Source: Nitrospira sp. MA-1 (GTDB lineage: Bacteria > Nitrospirota > Nitrospiria > Nitrospirales > UBA8639). Taken from it: 64,000 nt of DNA. The position numbers were made by a program, and so were the translations under genes. The notes beneath the pieces are model-generated. The model did no database searches. It saw only the letters and a list, made by a program, of their open reading frames with translations, and was not told where the DNA came from. This document shows positions 467-29,830 of this stretch, piece after piece (the first letter of the stretch is position 1; every line of letters begins with the position of its first letter). The stretch lies in assembly GCA_032139905.1 (NCBI GenBank), contig JAQJDB010000001.1:62001-126000 (forward strand), given 5' to 3'.

Positions 467-1336
467 ATGATTCAACGTTGTCGCACCATGTTTCCTCTGC
501 GTCTGATGTGTCGTCTCCTCCACGTCTCCCCGAGTGGGTTTTATGCCCGGCAGCGCCGCTCTCCGAGTCCCTGGGCTCAAGACTGTCAGCGCCTGACGGC
601 CGCCATTCGCATCATCCATGCAGACAGTGATGGGGTCTATGGGAGCCCGAAGATCTGGCAGGTGTTACGCAGGCAAGGCGAGGGCTGTGGGAAACATCGT
701 GTTGCCCGTTTAATGCAACGGGAGCGGTTGCGAGGGATTCCTGCTCCCACGCGTTGGAAACGGCGGAGATCTGGAGACCGACCGGCTGGAATCACGAATC
801 AGTTGGCCCGGGATTTTTCAGCCCCAGGTCCGAATGCCAAATGGGTGACGGATATCACCTATATTCCCACGCAAGAAGGCTGGCTGTACTTGGCGGTGGT
901 GCTCGATTTGTTCTCTCGGCAAGTGATTGGGTGGTCGATGCAGCCACAACTGGGACGGGACCTGGTCCTCCAAGCCGTGCTGATGGCCGTGTGGCAGCGG
1001 ACGAGTGCGGCCCCTGTCATCCTGCATTCCGACCGAGGCACCCAGTATACCTCACAGGAGTTTCAAGCCTTTCTCCAGGCTCATGGGATTGTCAGCAGTA
1101 TGAGTGGCGTGGGAAGTTGTTATGACAATGCCGTGGCAGAGAGTTTCTTTGGCCTCCTCAAACGAGAGCGAGTCCATCGGCGGCAGTACCAAACCCGGGC
1201 AGAGGCCCGCGCCGATATTTTTGACTACATTGAGCGGTTTTACAATCATCAGCGGAGCCACTCCTTTACTCAGGGACTGGCCCCGAAGAATTTTAGGGAG
1301 CAACACGATCCACAGTCTTCTTTAACCCGTCCGTGA
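467..1336 (+). CDS. IS3-family transposase OrfB (DDE catalytic domain, copy 1)
   Basis: A 289-aa protein with an HTH_21-like N-terminus (about residues 30-100) and an rve integrase core (about 115-270). The DDE residues are visible: D in WVTDITYIPT, D in ILHSDRGTQY, and E in NAVAESFFGLLKRE, 35 residues after the second D as in IS3. It lies in the -1 frame relative to orfA and is probably produced mainly as an OrfAB fusion, with free OrfB from this ATG. It is full length and free of stops, so the element may still be active. Confidence 0.94.
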   Translation: MIQRCRTMFPLRLMCRLLHVSPSGFYARQRRSPSPWAQDCQRLTAAIRIIHADSDGVYGSPKIWQVLRRQGEGCGKHRVARLMQRERLRGIPAPTRWKRRRSGDRPAGITNQLARDFSAPGPNAKWVTDITYIPTQEGWLYLAVVLDLFSRQVIGWSMQPQLGRDLVLQAVLMAVWQRTSAAPVILHSDRGTQYTSQEFQAFLQAHGIVSSMSGVGSCYDNAVAESFFGLLKRERVHRRQYQTRAEARADIFDYIERFYNHQRSHSFTQGLAPKNFREQHDPQSSLTRP

Positions 1337-1352
1337 AACTGGGGGAAGACCA

Positions 1353-3392
1353 CAGAATGGAAGCATGTCCAAGCTTTGGATCATGTCGTATGCACTCTAC
1401 TAATCGGCGGGCATTGTGTTTGGTTCGTTCGAATTGGAATAGCTTCTCCGCTAGTGGACGTAATGCCTTCCAATCTCCTGCTCGTTCAATTTCTCGTACA
1501 AGATTCTGGAGGTCTAGTAACACTCCTGTCCGTGAATAGATCTCTTCAAGGGTGGTTCGGGCATCTCCACCCTCCCTTCTGAGAATCACTACACGAAGGC
1601 GATCATAGTCATCATCGAAATCACTCTTGTGCTCCTCCAATACATGCTTTGCTCGGGCAATTTGCCCATCCGCTAGCAGCGCCTCAATTCTTTTCCCCGC
1701 TAGAGTAGCTATTGGGACACCTGTGACTAGGCGACTCTCTTCTTGCTCTAAAAAATCCGCATACTCGCGCGCAGTCATAGTAATCTCGCTCAAAAGAACC
1801 TCGGCAATAATCTCCTGGCCCTTCAGCCCACCCATCTGCGTCCGCTGTATAAGGTAACGTTGGAGCGGGCCTTTATCAAAATCAACGTCAAATGCGAGGG
1901 CGATAGGTAGAAAATTCACCGCCTGTGCAGGATCTTTCATGGCCTCTCCAACTTCTCCACGAGCCACCTTCGAGATTTCTTGTTTTTCTTCCGTGAGTCT
2001 GAGCCACAACAGCCAGCCTTTCGCTACTTCTGCCCGTGTATCCTCACCAATTTCTTTCATCAGTTTTACTGCACGATTGAAGCATTCATAGGAATGAAGA
2101 CGTCGCGGGTCTATATTAGGTCCAATAACTGGCTGTATATGTGGATGGAAGATATTCATTCGAAGAGCCAAGTGCCGTAACTCAGATGGAATTAACATGG
2201 CCGCATTGATGACGCCCTCGACAAATGCAAGGTCTGGCCAATCTTCTAAATGGCCCTGGGCAGCGGCGAGGTAATCGGATGCCTTTTCCCACATGCCAAT
2301 TTCGGCATAAGAAATTGCCAAGTTTGTCCATCCAATACCCGTTAGAAATCTAGCATCCGAGTGTTCTGGCTGTTCCTCAAACCACGAAAGAGCTGCTTCT
2401 TTGCCGCGATTACGAATTAGAACTGTCAATAAAGCAGAATGCCCATCAGGGTCATTTATATCTCTTAATCGAAGAAGCGCCCCATCAACATTTCCCTCCC
2501 TCTCCATAATGTATGCGTCGACAATCCGAGTGTCATACCTAGGATCAAGTTTGCGCAATTGCTCGAGATAGTTTCTTGCCGATAAGATGTGCTGAACATT
2601 AGAAGTGTGAAGGCGCGCCGCCCAGTATAGAATTTTTGTTCTGGTCTTTTGATCCGCGTAACGGAATTCGCCCTCCATGATTTGCTGAACTAGAGCGCGA
2701 ACTTCTTCATGCACGCGATCAGCTCGATATGCACGACTCTTGAGAACCCGGTCCAATTCTTTTGTGGCTAGGTCTGTATGGGCCGTCTCTACAAATTTGT
2801 CTGGTCCAAGTGTATTAAGTTTATCCCTAATGCCACCAAGTTCCTCGCCGGTCTTTTCAAATCCTTCTTTGTTAGCCTTGGCGCCAGCCTGAATCATGCC
2901 AGACAATGGGATTAAATCCCCATGGATACTGGCCTTGTAGCCGGCTATGAGGATATTAACCACTACTTCTATGGCCTCATCGGCGAAGGGATTTTCTTTA
3001 TTAGAAATGTTCCTATGGGTTTTCCTAAGCCGCTCCACGACTTCGTTGTCATCCGCAATCGAACCCACGATTCGGGCAGATGCTAAAGCTTTCAAATCGG
3101 AGCGAACTTGCGGATCGGAGAGCCAATATTTTATTTCTTCTTCCCGAAGGAATTGAGGGGTAACAAGTGGATGTTCGATATGAGATTTAATTTGGCTCAG
3201 AAATGTGTCGTCGACTTCTTCTCCTCGCAAGCGAGCAAGCGTTTTATCGAGCTCTATGTCAATTAACGAGCTTTCATCAATCTGAGATATCCCACTCCCA
3301 GCTTTACGCTCCCTATACAAACGAGAGAGGTCCTTCCAGACTTTGCGGCCCATAGAGAAAAGGGTTTTAAGAAATCCGACTATGTCCAGCAT
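1353..3392 (-). pseudogene. TPR-repeat protein gene interrupted by IS3 copy 1 (5' part)
   Basis: About 680 codons remain, encoding a soluble, mostly helical protein. The first 230 residues are charged and lack a signal peptide; the middle and C-terminus have degenerate TPR-like helices (for example LAISYAEIGMWEKASDYLAAAQ and ARAKHVLEEH). The reading frame runs straight into the IS end, adding a spurious tail ending in ...LKKTVDRVAP. Removing the IS and one CAG duplication restores about 701 codons ending near position 40. The layout resembles large TPR proteins that carry GreA- or PIN-like domains further on, but those domains are not visible here. Promoter and start would lie in the 220-bp gap shared with the divergent DUF488 gene. 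Confidence 0.8.
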
Positions 3393-3902: not shown

Positions 3903-4772
3903 TCACGGACGGGTTAAAGAAGACTGTGGATCGTGTTGCTCCCTAAAATTCTTCGGGGCCAGTCCCTGAGTAAAGGAGTGGCTCCGCTGATGATTGTAAA
4001 ACCGCTCAATGTAGTCAAAAATATCGGCGCGGGCCTCTGCCCGGGTTTGGTACTGCCGCCGATGGACTCGCTCTCGTTTGAGGAGGCCAAAGAAACTCTC
4101 TGCCACGGCATTGTCATAACAACTTCCCACGCCACTCATACTGCTGACAATCCCATGAGCCTGGAGAAAGGCTTGAAACTCCTGTGAGGTATACTGGGTG
4201 CCTCGGTCGGAATGCAGGATGACAGGGGCCGCACTCGTCCGCTGCCACACGGCCATCAGCACGGCTTGGAGGACCAGGTCCCGTCCCAGTTGTGGCTGCA
4301 TCGACCACCCAATCACTTGCCGAGAGAACAAATCGAGCACCACCGCCAAGTACAGCCAGCCTTCTTGCGTGGGAATATAGGTGATATCCGTCACCCATTT
4401 GGCATTCGGACCTGGGGCTGAAAAATCCCGGGCCAACTGATTCGTGATTCCAGCCGGTCGGTCTCCAGATCTCCGCCGTTTCCAACGCGTGGGAGCAGGA
4501 ATCCCTCGCAACCGCTCCCGTTGCATTAAACGGGCAACACGATGTTTCCCACAGCCCTCGCCTTGCCTGCGTAACACCTGCCAGATCTTCGGGCTCCCAT
4601 AGACCCCATCACTGTCTGCATGGATGATGCGAATGGCGGCCGTCAGGCGCTGACAGTCTTGAGCCCAGGGACTCGGAGAGCGGCGCTGCCGGGCATAAAA
4701 CCCACTCGGGGAGACGTGGAGGAGACGACACATCAGACGCAGAGGAAACATGGTGCGACAACGTTGAATCAT
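3903..4772 (-). CDS. IS3-family transposase OrfB (copy 2)
   Basis: Identical in protein sequence to OrfB of copy 1: 289 aa with the complete rve DDE core. It lies in the -1 frame relative to its orfA (4781-5068), with the same T TTT TTA slippery run at 4820-4826 on the minus strand. It ends inside the element, 16 bp from the terminal repeat edge. Confidence 0.94.
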   Translation of the reverse strand: MIQRCRTMFPLRLMCRLLHVSPSGFYARQRRSPSPWAQDCQRLTAAIRIIHADSDGVYGSPKIWQVLRRQGEGCGKHRVARLMQRERLRGIPAPTRWKRRRSGDRPAGITNQLARDFSAPGPNAKWVTDITYIPTQEGWLYLAVVLDLFSRQVIGWSMQPQLGRDLVLQAVLMAVWQRTSAAPVILHSDRGTQYTSQEFQAFLQAHGIVSSMSGVGSCYDNAVAESFFGLLKRERVHRRQYQTRAEARADIFDYIERFYNHQRSHSFTQGLAPKNFREQHDPQSSLTRP

Positions 4773-10585: not shown

Positions 10586-11386
10586 TTAATCCAGCGCGAG
10601 GGTCAGGCATTTGGCGGAGCCACCGGCCTTGAGGAATTCATCCAGTTCCACAGGATGGGTGATATAGCCCCGTTTGTGTAACCATGCCATCGTTTCCGGA
10701 CATCCGGTCGGCAGAACGACATGGCGGTCGATACAGACCGCATTGCAGGCAAATCGCTCGCCTTCCTGGGATGGGACTGCAAATCGTTTGTCCGGTTCTA
10801 TACGAGAAGCCAGCACAGTTTGGGCGTACGTATCGAAACAGGGGGGATAGTAGAGAAGCTCTCCTCCGCTGAGGGGACAAAAGCAGGTATCCAGATGATA
10901 AAACCGTTGGTCCACCAATTCCACAGGCATGATTTCTTTCTGGAAAATTTCCGACAACTGGACATAGGCGCTGATATCACTCCGTTGCCGGTAGCCGCCG
11001 ATCCAGAAATCCGGAAATCCCAATAAGTCCCCGGCCCCTTCAAAGTTTATGTCGGGGTCAAGGTTGATGACTTCATAGCCCTTTTTGGTGAACCAATCAA
11101 TGAAATGCCGCTCCTCACCCTGCCGTTCCGGGTGGCGGAATTGGCTGGGAACAGCCTTGCCCCCATGGAGGACACCCGCATTGGCGGTAAACACCAAATC
11201 AGGTAGTTTTGGTATCGGTTCCATAAATTCGAGTTTGACTCCAACCTCGTTCTCCAGTACCTGGGTCAGCGTTTTCCATTGGGTTCTGGCGCGATCTCCA
11301 TTGGATTGATTCGACACTCTCATCCATGGATTAATCTCATATTCGATACCAAAATAATCCGGGGGGCACATCAATAAACGGCTCAT
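10586..11386 (-). CDS. arginine dihydrolase-like amidinotransferase-fold enzyme
   Basis: 266 aa of the guanidino-group-modifying (PP-fold) superfamily, cytoplasmic. Its N-terminus MCPPDYFGIEYEINPWM is like the catalytic N-terminal domain of the cyanobacterial arginine dihydrolase ArgZ/AgrE. Candidate active-site residues are N19 (INPWM), N69 (TANAG), H164 (HLDTCFCPL) and C260 (SAKCLTL). Asparagines at the first two positions are what I recall separating dihydrolases (arginine to ornithine, CO2 and two NH3) from deiminases. It starts 15 bp after the LOR/SDH gene stops, on the same strand, so the two form an operon matching the two halves of AgrE. Dimethylarginine dimethylaminohydrolase is the alternative call. 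Confidence 0.75.
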   Translation of the reverse strand: MSRLLMCPPDYFGIEYEINPWMRVSNQSNGDRARTQWKTLTQVLENEVGVKLEFMEPIPKLPDLVFTANAGVLHGGKAVPSQFRHPERQGEERHFIDWFTKKGYEVINLDPDINFEGAGDLLGFPDFWIGGYRQRSDISAYVQLSEIFQKEIMPVELVDQRFYHLDTCFCPLSGGELLYYPPCFDTYAQTVLASRIEPDKRFAVPSQEGERFACNAVCIDRHVVLPTGCPETMAWLHKRGYITHPVELDEFLKAGGSAKCLTLALD

Positions 11387-11401
11387 GGTATGGGTACCCT
11401 G

Positions 11402-12640
11402 CTATCCTTTCCAGCCGAGTTCACGGGCCAATTCCCATAAAAAAGAAGAAGAATCCATCACCAGTCCGACGGCTTGGAAGCTTCCACGGTCACTCAGTTT
11501 TGTGGGAACGGCAGGATTGATATCGACACAGACGGTTGGTGATGACGCCGGTAGCAAATTTCCAGTCGCCACGGCATGCAGGGTGGAGGCCACCAACAGG
11601 GCCAACCCCACGCCGGGAATGGCAGCGCGCATGGCCTCTTGGGCTTTGATGGAATCGGTGATGACGTCAGGCAAAGGGCCATCGTCCCGAATCGTCCCGG
11701 CCAGCACCATCTGGACCCCCTGTCGTATGCAGGCGGCCATGATTCCATCTTTGATTAATCCGCTTTCGATGGCTTTTCGGATGCTTCCCAGGGCCCGCAC
11801 ACGATTGATGGTGCGAAGGTGGTGCTCATGTCCGTGAGGCATGGAACGGCCAATACCCAGATTGTATCCTAAGGACGTTCCATATAGGCTGGCTTCCATG
11901 TCGTGAGCGGCCAGGGCGTTTCCGCAAAACAGAACATGGATGTATCCCGCTTCGATGATCCATGCCAGGGCTTCCCGGCCTCCCGCATGGATGATGGCCG
12001 GACCACCCGCAAACAACACCTTACCGGACCCTTTTCCCTCTTTTCGTTGTTGTTGAATGGCCTTCATCCGTTTGGCCACGTCGGCGATGATATGGTGGTG
12101 AGGACGTTCGGAAGAAACCTGGGCGTCCATGAATCCGAACACATCCCGTTCTTTTGGTCGTTCCAGCGGGAATACCCGAACTCCTTTTCTCCCCGTGACG
12201 ACCAGGTCGCCTTTTTTCACCGAGCCCATGGGAAGCATCTGTGCGGAAAGTGGAGAGGGCTTGAGTCTAATCGCCACATCCATTTCGGGTTGCGGGACAT
12301 CGATCCAGCTTCCTTGCCACCGTATTTGAGTGGCTAGATGAGATGTCGCGTAAAAATCCTCCGGTAAAATCCCATCAGCCGGTGCTGGCTCGACCGTGCA
12401 GTCCTCTTCGGTTTCAACCACTGCCCCATGCGGCTGAATGGTTTTCAGGATTTCCTGTAATAACTCCATGGTGGGAGCTTCAATCAGGATGGTGGCATGG
12501 GATGTGTCCTCCCGCCGGGTTCCCACCGTCACTTCCGAGAGGGTAAAGGTTCCCCCCAACATGACAATCGCATCCAGGACCTTTGCTAAGATCAATGAAT
12601 CAATGATATGCCCTTGGATGGTGATGGGTTGAACGATCAT
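11402..12640 (-). CDS. LOR/SDH-type ornithine cyclodeaminase (TIGR00300-like)
   Basis: 412 aa, cytoplasmic. The N-terminal part (about 1-100) matches the LOR/SDH bifunctional-enzyme conserved region, with two ferredoxin-like units (HIIDSLILAKVLDAIVMLGG and SHATILIEAP). The C-terminal Rossmann-like part has VLFAGGPAIIHAGG (about 206-219), LFCGNALAAHDMEA and GHEHHLRTINRVRALGS (about 268-284). Homologues convert ornithine to proline and ammonia using NAD as a catalytic cofactor, and form the C-terminal half of cyanobacterial AgrE. It is the first gene of the pair with the arginine dihydrolase-like gene. Saccharopine dehydrogenase-related activity is possible but less likely. Confidence 0.82.
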   Translation of the reverse strand: MIVQPITIQGHIIDSLILAKVLDAIVMLGGTFTLSEVTVGTRREDTSHATILIEAPTMELLQEILKTIQPHGAVVETEEDCTVEPAPADGILPEDFYATSHLATQIRWQGSWIDVPQPEMDVAIRLKPSPLSAQMLPMGSVKKGDLVVTGRKGVRVFPLERPKERDVFGFMDAQVSSERPHHHIIADVAKRMKAIQQQRKEGKGSGKVLFAGGPAIIHAGGREALAWIIEAGYIHVLFCGNALAAHDMEASLYGTSLGYNLGIGRSMPHGHEHHLRTINRVRALGSIRKAIESGLIKDGIMAACIRQGVQMVLAGTIRDDGPLPDVITDSIKAQEAMRAAIPGVGLALLVASTLHAVATGNLLPASSPTVCVDINPAVPTKLSDRGSFQAVGLVMDSSSFLWELARELGWKG

Positions 12641-28756: not shown

Positions 28757-29830
28757 ATGTCAGCATATCGCAACATCATGGTTCTTCTGGCCGCGCTTCT
28801 GTCTGTCATGGCCTTGTCCGGCGCTGTTGCCCGTGCAGAGGTCGACTTCTATTCCCACGATGAACGGAATCTCCGTCCCGTAATTGGTGTTTTCAGTCAA
28901 GAGACTGAGACGATCACCGGATCGAGCACAATCGACCCCGCAGTGAAAGCGGAGCTCTCCCGGTATCGGTATATGATTCCCGCCAGTTACGTGAAATGGG
29001 TTGGACAGGCAGGTGGACGGGTGCTGCCTATTCTCCTGAATCAGCCAGAGAGGTACTACGATGAAATCTTCGAAAAGACGAACGGGATTCTTTTCCCTGG
29101 TGGGAATCAGGGGATCGATCCGTCAGACATTTATACGGAGGAGGGGGAAATCCTTTGGAACTTAGCCAAGGAGGCGAATGATCGTGGCGACTACTATCCG
29201 ATATGGGGGACATGTCTGGGGTTCGAAGAGCTTTCGGTGTTGGAGACGGGCAACGGCAATGTGATCAACCTCAATGTGGTGGCGACGAATCTGGCCCTGT
29301 CCCTGCGGTTCACTCGTGATGCGAGACAGAGCAGGCTCTTTACGTCGTTTCCCCCAAAGCTCCTAAGGGCGATTCGAACCCAGAGGCTGACCTTCAACTC
29401 CCACGACCACGGGCTGCTGGTCAGCGAATACCGGTCGAACCCATCGCTGTATTCGTTTTTTGACATGCTGTCGTTTAATGAAGCGCCTGCGGGTCAGGTG
29501 TTTGTGAGCACCATGGAGGCACGAGATTATCCATTCTACGGCACGCAGTGGCATCCGGAGAAGAACAATTTCGAATGGAGCCAGAACGCTGACTATTCAA
29601 ACATCCCCCATTCGCCGAACGCCATACTGGTTTCCGAAGCCACGGCCCGGTTTTTCCTTAGTGAAGCGAGAAAGTCAGGGCACATCTTTCCCGAAGCCCG
29701 ACGCGACGAACTGATCTACTCCGCCCCGATCATCTACACGGGTAAGGGCGACTGGATCTACGAGCAGGTCTACGTCTTTTGTCCAACGGACGCGAGGTCT
29801 TGTTCACTGAGTAAAAAATTAGCAGAGTGA
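28757..29830 (+). CDS. exported gamma-glutamyl hydrolase (peptidase C26)
   Basis: 357 aa with AACGAGGAG before the ATG and a signal peptide (MVLLAALLSVMALSGAVARA). It is a class I glutamine-amidotransferase-like hydrolase close to eukaryotic-type folylpoly-gamma-glutamate hydrolase: RPVIGVFSQE, the catalytic Cys in YPIWGTCLGFEELS (about residue 156), and the His in FYGTQWHPEKNNFEW (about 270). It would remove gamma-linked glutamates, from folate polyglutamates or other gamma-glutamyl chains, outside the cytoplasm. No folate genes adjoin it. Confidence 0.87.
   Translation: MSAYRNIMVLLAALLSVMALSGAVARAEVDFYSHDERNLRPVIGVFSQETETITGSSTIDPAVKAELSRYRYMIPASYVKWVGQAGGRVLPILLNQPERYYDEIFEKTNGILFPGGNQGIDPSDIYTEEGEILWNLAKEANDRGDYYPIWGTCLGFEELSVLETGNGNVINLNVVATNLALSLRFTRDARQSRLFTSFPPKLLRAIRTQRLTFNSHDHGLLVSEYRSNPSLYSFFDMLSFNEAPAGQVFVSTMEARDYPFYGTQWHPEKNNFEWSQNADYSNIPHSPNAILVSEATARFFLSEARKSGHIFPEARRDELIYSAPIIYTGKGDWIYEQVYVFCPTDARSCSLSKKLAE

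Follow-up and report, generated by a model that had tools for sequence, protein, structure and literature searches.

The cyanobacterial enzymes ArgZ and AgrE unite an arginine dihydrolase and an ornithine cyclodeaminase, and two adjacent genes in the genome of Nitrospira sp. MA-1 appear to encode the same two activities as separate proteins. The locus thus raises the question whether the two proteins together take arginine to ornithine and on to proline, which cofactor the second step would use, and how the pair relates to the cyanobacterial fusion. We analysed it within a stretch of 64,000 nucleotides (contig JAQJDB010000001.1, positions 62,001 to 126,000), referred to here as the window, from a source genome of 4.76 Mb in 7 contigs. 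The reading that we prefer, at a probability of about 0.7, is a two-gene operon for arginine breakdown via ornithine and proline.

Layout and identity of the gene pair

Both open reading frames lie on the minus strand, with the gene of the cyclodeaminase (OCD) first and that of the dihydrolase-like enzyme (ADH) second (Table 1). This is the order claimed in the original prediction, which gave no strand and placed a gene for a guanidino-modifying enzyme 15 bp after a cyclodeaminase gene, and both frames are found where it had located them. In many relatives the two reading frames overlap by a few bases. Its reading of the products as arginine dihydrolase and ornithine cyclodeaminase is supported by the protein families, the fold, the catalytic residues and the pairing of the genes, and the pair very probably converts arginine to ornithine and then to proline with release of ammonia. 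The analysis establishes the identity of the genes, their residues, predicted fold, conservation and pairing, as well as the occurrence of larB, larC, larE, a proline dehydrogenase of PutA size, proB and proC in the genome, whereas the reaction products, the cofactor, the cotranscription and the physiological role of the pair are inferred.

Table 1. Coordinates of the OCD/ADH pair and of candidate catalytic codons in the window.
Feature	Position	Strand	Description or basis
OCD, ornithine cyclodeaminase, LOR/SDH type, upstream gene	11402..12640	-	412 aa; TIGR00300; PF04455 + PF21571 + PF21570
ADH, arginine dihydrolase-like guanidino-modifying enzyme, downstream gene	10586..11386	-	266 aa; match to ArgZ N-terminal domain
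Spacer of 15 bp from the OCD stop to the ADH start	11387..11401	-	ORF coordinates
N19 codon of ADH	11330..11332	-	aligned with ArgZ N22; no Asn here in DDAH-like paralogues
N69 codon of ADH	11180..11182	-	aligned with ArgZ N71; Asp in DDAH-like paralogues
H164 codon of ADH	10895..10897	-	aligned with ArgZ H168
C260 codon of ADH, nucleophile position	10607..10609	-	aligned with ArgZ C264

Elsewhere in the window, two transposase ORF copies with identical translations lie in inverted orientation at 467-1336 (+) and 3903-4772 (-) and flank a 699-aa ORF (1293-3392), an arrangement resembling a composite transposon. Further downstream, the ORF at 28757-29830 (+) resembles, as we assume from recognition by eye only, a secreted gamma-glutamyl hydrolase, an enzyme better known from eukaryotes.

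Conservation and spread of the pair

Within a phylum sample of 148 genomes, the ADH search matched 46 genomes and the OCD model scored over its cut-off in 36. OCD was located directly upstream of ADH in all 30 loci fetched from this sample, so the pairing is not due to chance, and G119, a genome of another family, has the same arrangement. A single motif-based scan of named genomes contributed 80 further loci from Planctomycetota, Verrucomicrobiota, Chloroflexota, Omnitrophota, Nitrospinota, Methylomirabilota, Myxococcota and other records. Of the 44 loci with both genes complete, 43 have the two on one strand with OCD upstream, mostly within 250 bp of ADH, and a TIGR00300 gene was present in 46 of the 50 ADH genomes outside the phylum sample. 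The distance matrices of ADH and OCD from 55 genomes match (Mantel r 0.84, with 0 of 999 permutations as high), as expected if both genes travel together.

The closest relatives among named records are Nitrospirota, including one labelled Nitrospira defluvii (L135). The spread over many phyla rules out a speciality of nitrite oxidisers; the original prediction had linked the ammonia release to nitrogen-based energy metabolism, but the pair is widespread across bacterial phyla rather than special to nitrogen oxidisers. The pair of a Nitrospinota record (L114:8724-10783) falls within the Nitrospirales clade in the ADH tree as well as in the OCD tree, suggesting a transfer of the pair between the Nitrospinota and Nitrospirales lineages. 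Two degraded copies were also encountered: a member of the Gastranaerophilales, non-photosynthetic relatives of cyanobacteria, carries an ADH (L132:9782-10798) that is immediately preceded by no more than a remnant of OCD (positions 3-76, with one stop), which is the unfused order, and the Nitrospirota genome G133, a close relative that has no OCD, contains a disrupted piece of ADH in which a TGA occurs (C53:26212-26415).

The upstream protein and its cofactor

With 471 bits over 405 residues, OCD exceeds the cut-off of TIGR00300 (410.8) and belongs to this family, which carries the NCBIfam title 'ornithine cyclodeaminase, nickel-pincer nucleotide-dependent'; all three ArgZ-C/LOR-SDH Pfam domains are likewise over their cut-offs. 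Its best solved relatives are the Methanococcus maripaludis protein 3c2q (327 bits) and the C-terminal half of AgrE (320 bits), its identity to ArgZ/AgrE is 34-40%, and its AlphaFold model (pLDDT 86.9) reaches a TM score of 0.81 to ArgZ. The polar residues that it has in common with both AgrE and 3c2q are H218, N241, H246, D247, E249, H271, H273, H274, N279, R318, D319, D320, D329, H355, N361, D373, K381, D384 and R385; K20 and Q389, also conserved in the family, differ in AgrE. The substrate of the family is ornithine, not citrulline. OCD would accordingly be expected to form proline and NH3 from ornithine by transient abstraction and return of a hydride, and we give a slightly better than even chance to the nickel-pincer nucleotide (NPN) as the hydride carrier, and hence to an NPN-dependent OCD, with NAD+ as the other candidate.

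The genome has profile matches to larB (291 bits), larC (191 bits) and larE (308 bits), of which larB and larC are close together (L032), and LarA was not found in this genome carrying the pair. Throughout the phylum sample larC was detected in 36 of 36 OCD genomes, 25 of them without LarA, and the TIGR00300-positive controls M. jannaschii and Haloferax volcanii also contain larC and no Lar_N. If OCD were instead NAD+-dependent, a serious competitor at somewhat less than even odds, larB, larC and larE would serve another, unrecognised client. The crystal structure of AgrE in complex with ornithine and NAD+ (6lrg) fits this explanation, and so does the distribution of larC beyond the order, where 34 of 46 OCD genomes have the gene and 12 lack it. 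These 12 genomes rule out that larC always accompanies OCD. Many of the larC genomes outside the order also possess LarA as an alternative client. Several genomes have larC but neither OCD nor LarA, namely the closely related Nitrospirota genomes G105 and G133 and, among the controls, Synechococcus elongatus and Corynebacterium glutamicum, so that the presence of larC is not specific.

Gene neighbourhood bears on the same choice from both sides. In 29 of the 30 genomes of the sister family f2 that have the pair, larC lies on the strand of ADH, 3.7-6.8 kb further downstream, with gpsA and larB in between, and two planctomycetes, L078 and L093, also have larC close to the pair, which speaks against NAD+. 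The window's own family, by contrast, shows no such linkage. Upstream of the pair it has the same genes as f2 (HEAT repeat, transglutaminase-like and ABC transporter genes, and in some cases a gene of the metallo-beta-lactamase fold), but its gpsA-larB-larC block lies elsewhere; the lar linkage is therefore a feature of a single clade that synteny alone may explain.

A further argument for NPN comes from the Verrucomicrobiota, in which larC and LarA were absent from all three genomes checked. Their OCDs have H273 replaced in 13 of 13 sequences and H218, H246, K381, D384 and R385 in most, whereas these six residues are invariant or nearly so in 45 other OCDs. It is possible that cofactor or function has changed here, but these OCDs form one clade and thus count as no more than a single event, and the residues persist in other genomes that lack larC. 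The loci with an altered OCD (L105-L108, L111, L116, L118, L124, L126-L129 and L134) have an otherwise normal ADH. In the open-access literature we found no link between the nickel-pincer nucleotide and ornithine cyclodeaminase.

Probable fate of ornithine and proline

The genome encodes a proline dehydrogenase in a frame of 1004 aa, the size of a bifunctional PutA, as well as proB and proC. In cyanobacteria, the AgrE-PutA route leads from arginine via ornithine and proline to glutamate (PMC8262935), and the pair together with a proline dehydrogenase of PutA size indicates that the same sequence of steps is encoded here, with a PutA-type enzyme that would take proline to glutamate. OCD as the sole source of proline is ruled out by proB and proC, and proline synthesis need not depend on it. 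This last point also fits a different role of the pair, namely that it mainly runs an arginine-ornithine cycle as nitrogen overflow or store, as described for cyanobacteria (discussed in PMC8262935), in which ornithine returns to arginine synthesis and OCD is only a relief valve. We consider such a role unlikely, as the PutA-size frame fits full catabolism to glutamate and OCD almost always accompanies ADH.

The product of the downstream protein

Arginine breakdown through OCD presupposes that ADH releases ornithine. The best PDB matches of ADH are ArgZ and AgrE (232-244 bits, about 42-45% identity), followed by dimethylarginine dimethylaminohydrolase (DDAH) at 31 bits. Its AlphaFold model (pLDDT 97.3) superimposes on ArgZ with a TM score of 0.96, an rmsd of 1.1 A and 42% identity, and on DDAH structures with TM scores of 0.81-0.83. 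Against the arginine dihydrolase model NF052232 (Arg_dihydro) it scores 285 bits (E 4.8e-85), below the curated cut-off of 450 and hence outside that family as curated, which is equally true for the unfused relatives checked (252-290 bits); against NF045659, the model of mycobacterial-type dimethylargininase, it scores 229 bits with a cut-off of 300.

The four candidate residues that the original prediction likened to cyanobacterial dihydrolase are correctly positioned and align with their counterparts in ArgZ (Sll1336), i.e., Asn at 22 and 71, His at 168 and Cys at 264, with the ArgZ numbering fixed by the N71S and C264S mutants, which are known from PDB titles and sequences; according to its PDB title, 6jv1 is the C264S mutant with substrate bound. 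N19, N69, H164 and C260 are kept in 38 of 38 ADH-like sequences, ArgZ included, from a homology search without motif selection. They are also invariant in a larger set (n=94), a number that is partly built in because most of these sequences come from the scan with Asn-containing motifs. Asp in place of Asn had been named as the observation that would speak against a dihydrolase; ADH and all 38 homologues have Asn at both sites, and the reading stands. In comparison, three DDAH-like paralogues (L052-L054) have Asp instead of N69 and lack Asn at position 19. These Asp-motif paralogues occur in the window's family (G081:C1:119059, G065:C22:250237 and G125:C16:3780), and the homology search detected none in the window's own genome.

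Judged by its sequence, ADH probably functions as arginine dihydrolases do and falls into their branch. By analogy with ArgZ, Cys260 would attack the guanidinium carbon of arginine with the assistance of His164, and hydrolysis of both C-N bonds would yield ornithine, 2 NH3 and CO2. Asn19 and Asn69, whose positions are occupied by acidic residues in the related deiminases and DDAH, may favour this double hydrolysis over the release of citrulline. The score of ADH below the NF052232 cut-off, together with that of its relative L042, which at 299.5 bits just misses the dimethylargininase cut-off of 300, means that sequence alone leaves the substrate unfixed.

L042 (6365-7165) is one of four loci, with L043 (5790-6626), L047 (2120-2923) and L049 (2454-3254), whose proteins reach 250-299.5 bits with NF045659 and carry the dihydrolase Asn pair; the name 'dimethylargininase DdahMtb' may be wrong for part of the score range of this model.

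That ADH is instead an arginine deiminase or DDAH-type hydrolase, stopping at citrulline or freeing dimethylamine while the neighbouring OCD belongs to a different arginine-derived route, would accord with the shared superfamily fold, the score below the dihydrolase equivalog cut-off and the 229 bits with NF045659, but is improbable given the invariant Asn at both positions as opposed to Asp at 69 in the DDAH-like paralogues, a DDAH match some 210 bits weaker than that of ArgZ, the presence of OCD in 46 of 50 ADH genomes and the use of ornithine, not citrulline, by OCD.

Significance

A dihydrolase and cyclodeaminase pair of this kind extends a cyanobacterial pathway to many phyla, including Planctomycetota, Verrucomicrobiota and relatives of nitrite oxidisers. 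Annotation is unlikely to recognise the dihydrolase there, because its scores stay below the curated cut-offs. Since each protein carries a single activity, the questions of citrulline versus ornithine as product and of the OCD cofactor are easier to test here than in the fused enzyme. Moreover, where a genome produces the nickel-pincer cofactor but lacks LarA, OCD is suggested as a client of this cofactor.

Comparison with known systems

The DDAH enzymes (1h70, 3rhy and human DDAH-1) share with ADH the fold and the catalytic Cys and His, yet their structural identity to it is just 16-18%, and the DDAH-like paralogues of related genomes differ from it at positions 69 and 19 as described above. 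The mycobacterial Rv2323c belongs to the same superfamily and is annotated as DDAH and required for growth on arginine (PMC4569260), and NF045659, the model of the mycobacterial type, matches ADH below its cut-off; unlike the locus studied here, the mycobacterial cluster has an ornithine aminotransferase gene. For OCD, the M. maripaludis LOR/SDH protein (3c2q) and MJ1480 are stand-alone proteins of the same type, with the same residues and in the same curated family, but they are archaeal.

The closest counterparts are ArgZ (Sll1336) of Synechocystis and AgrE (Alr4995) of Anabaena, which share with the pair both activity domains, their folds, the catalytic Asn, Asn, His and Cys and nearly all conserved polar residues of OCD. 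However, the cyanobacterial enzymes are one polypeptide with ADH before OCD, as the bifunctional model NF052231 describes, whereas the window holds two ORFs separated by a stop codon and the short gap, with OCD before ADH. The description of the pair as an unfused AgrE/ArgZ equivalent therefore holds for function and fails for collinearity: splitting AgrE would not by itself give the pair, and the fusion cannot be derived by mere loss of the stop codon between genes ordered as here. Quick trees place the ADH clade of the window near ArgZ (support 87, weak) and join AgrE's OCD part to the methanogen protein (96), apart from the unfused bacterial OCDs; both are long branches, which makes this a lead only. 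Tentatively, and with a chance that we put just under even, the Nitrospirales keep larB, larC and larE, mostly without LarA, to serve a stand-alone OCD, and the OCD-first two-protein form is the widespread bacterial version, while the cyanobacterial fusion was assembled separately in the other order.
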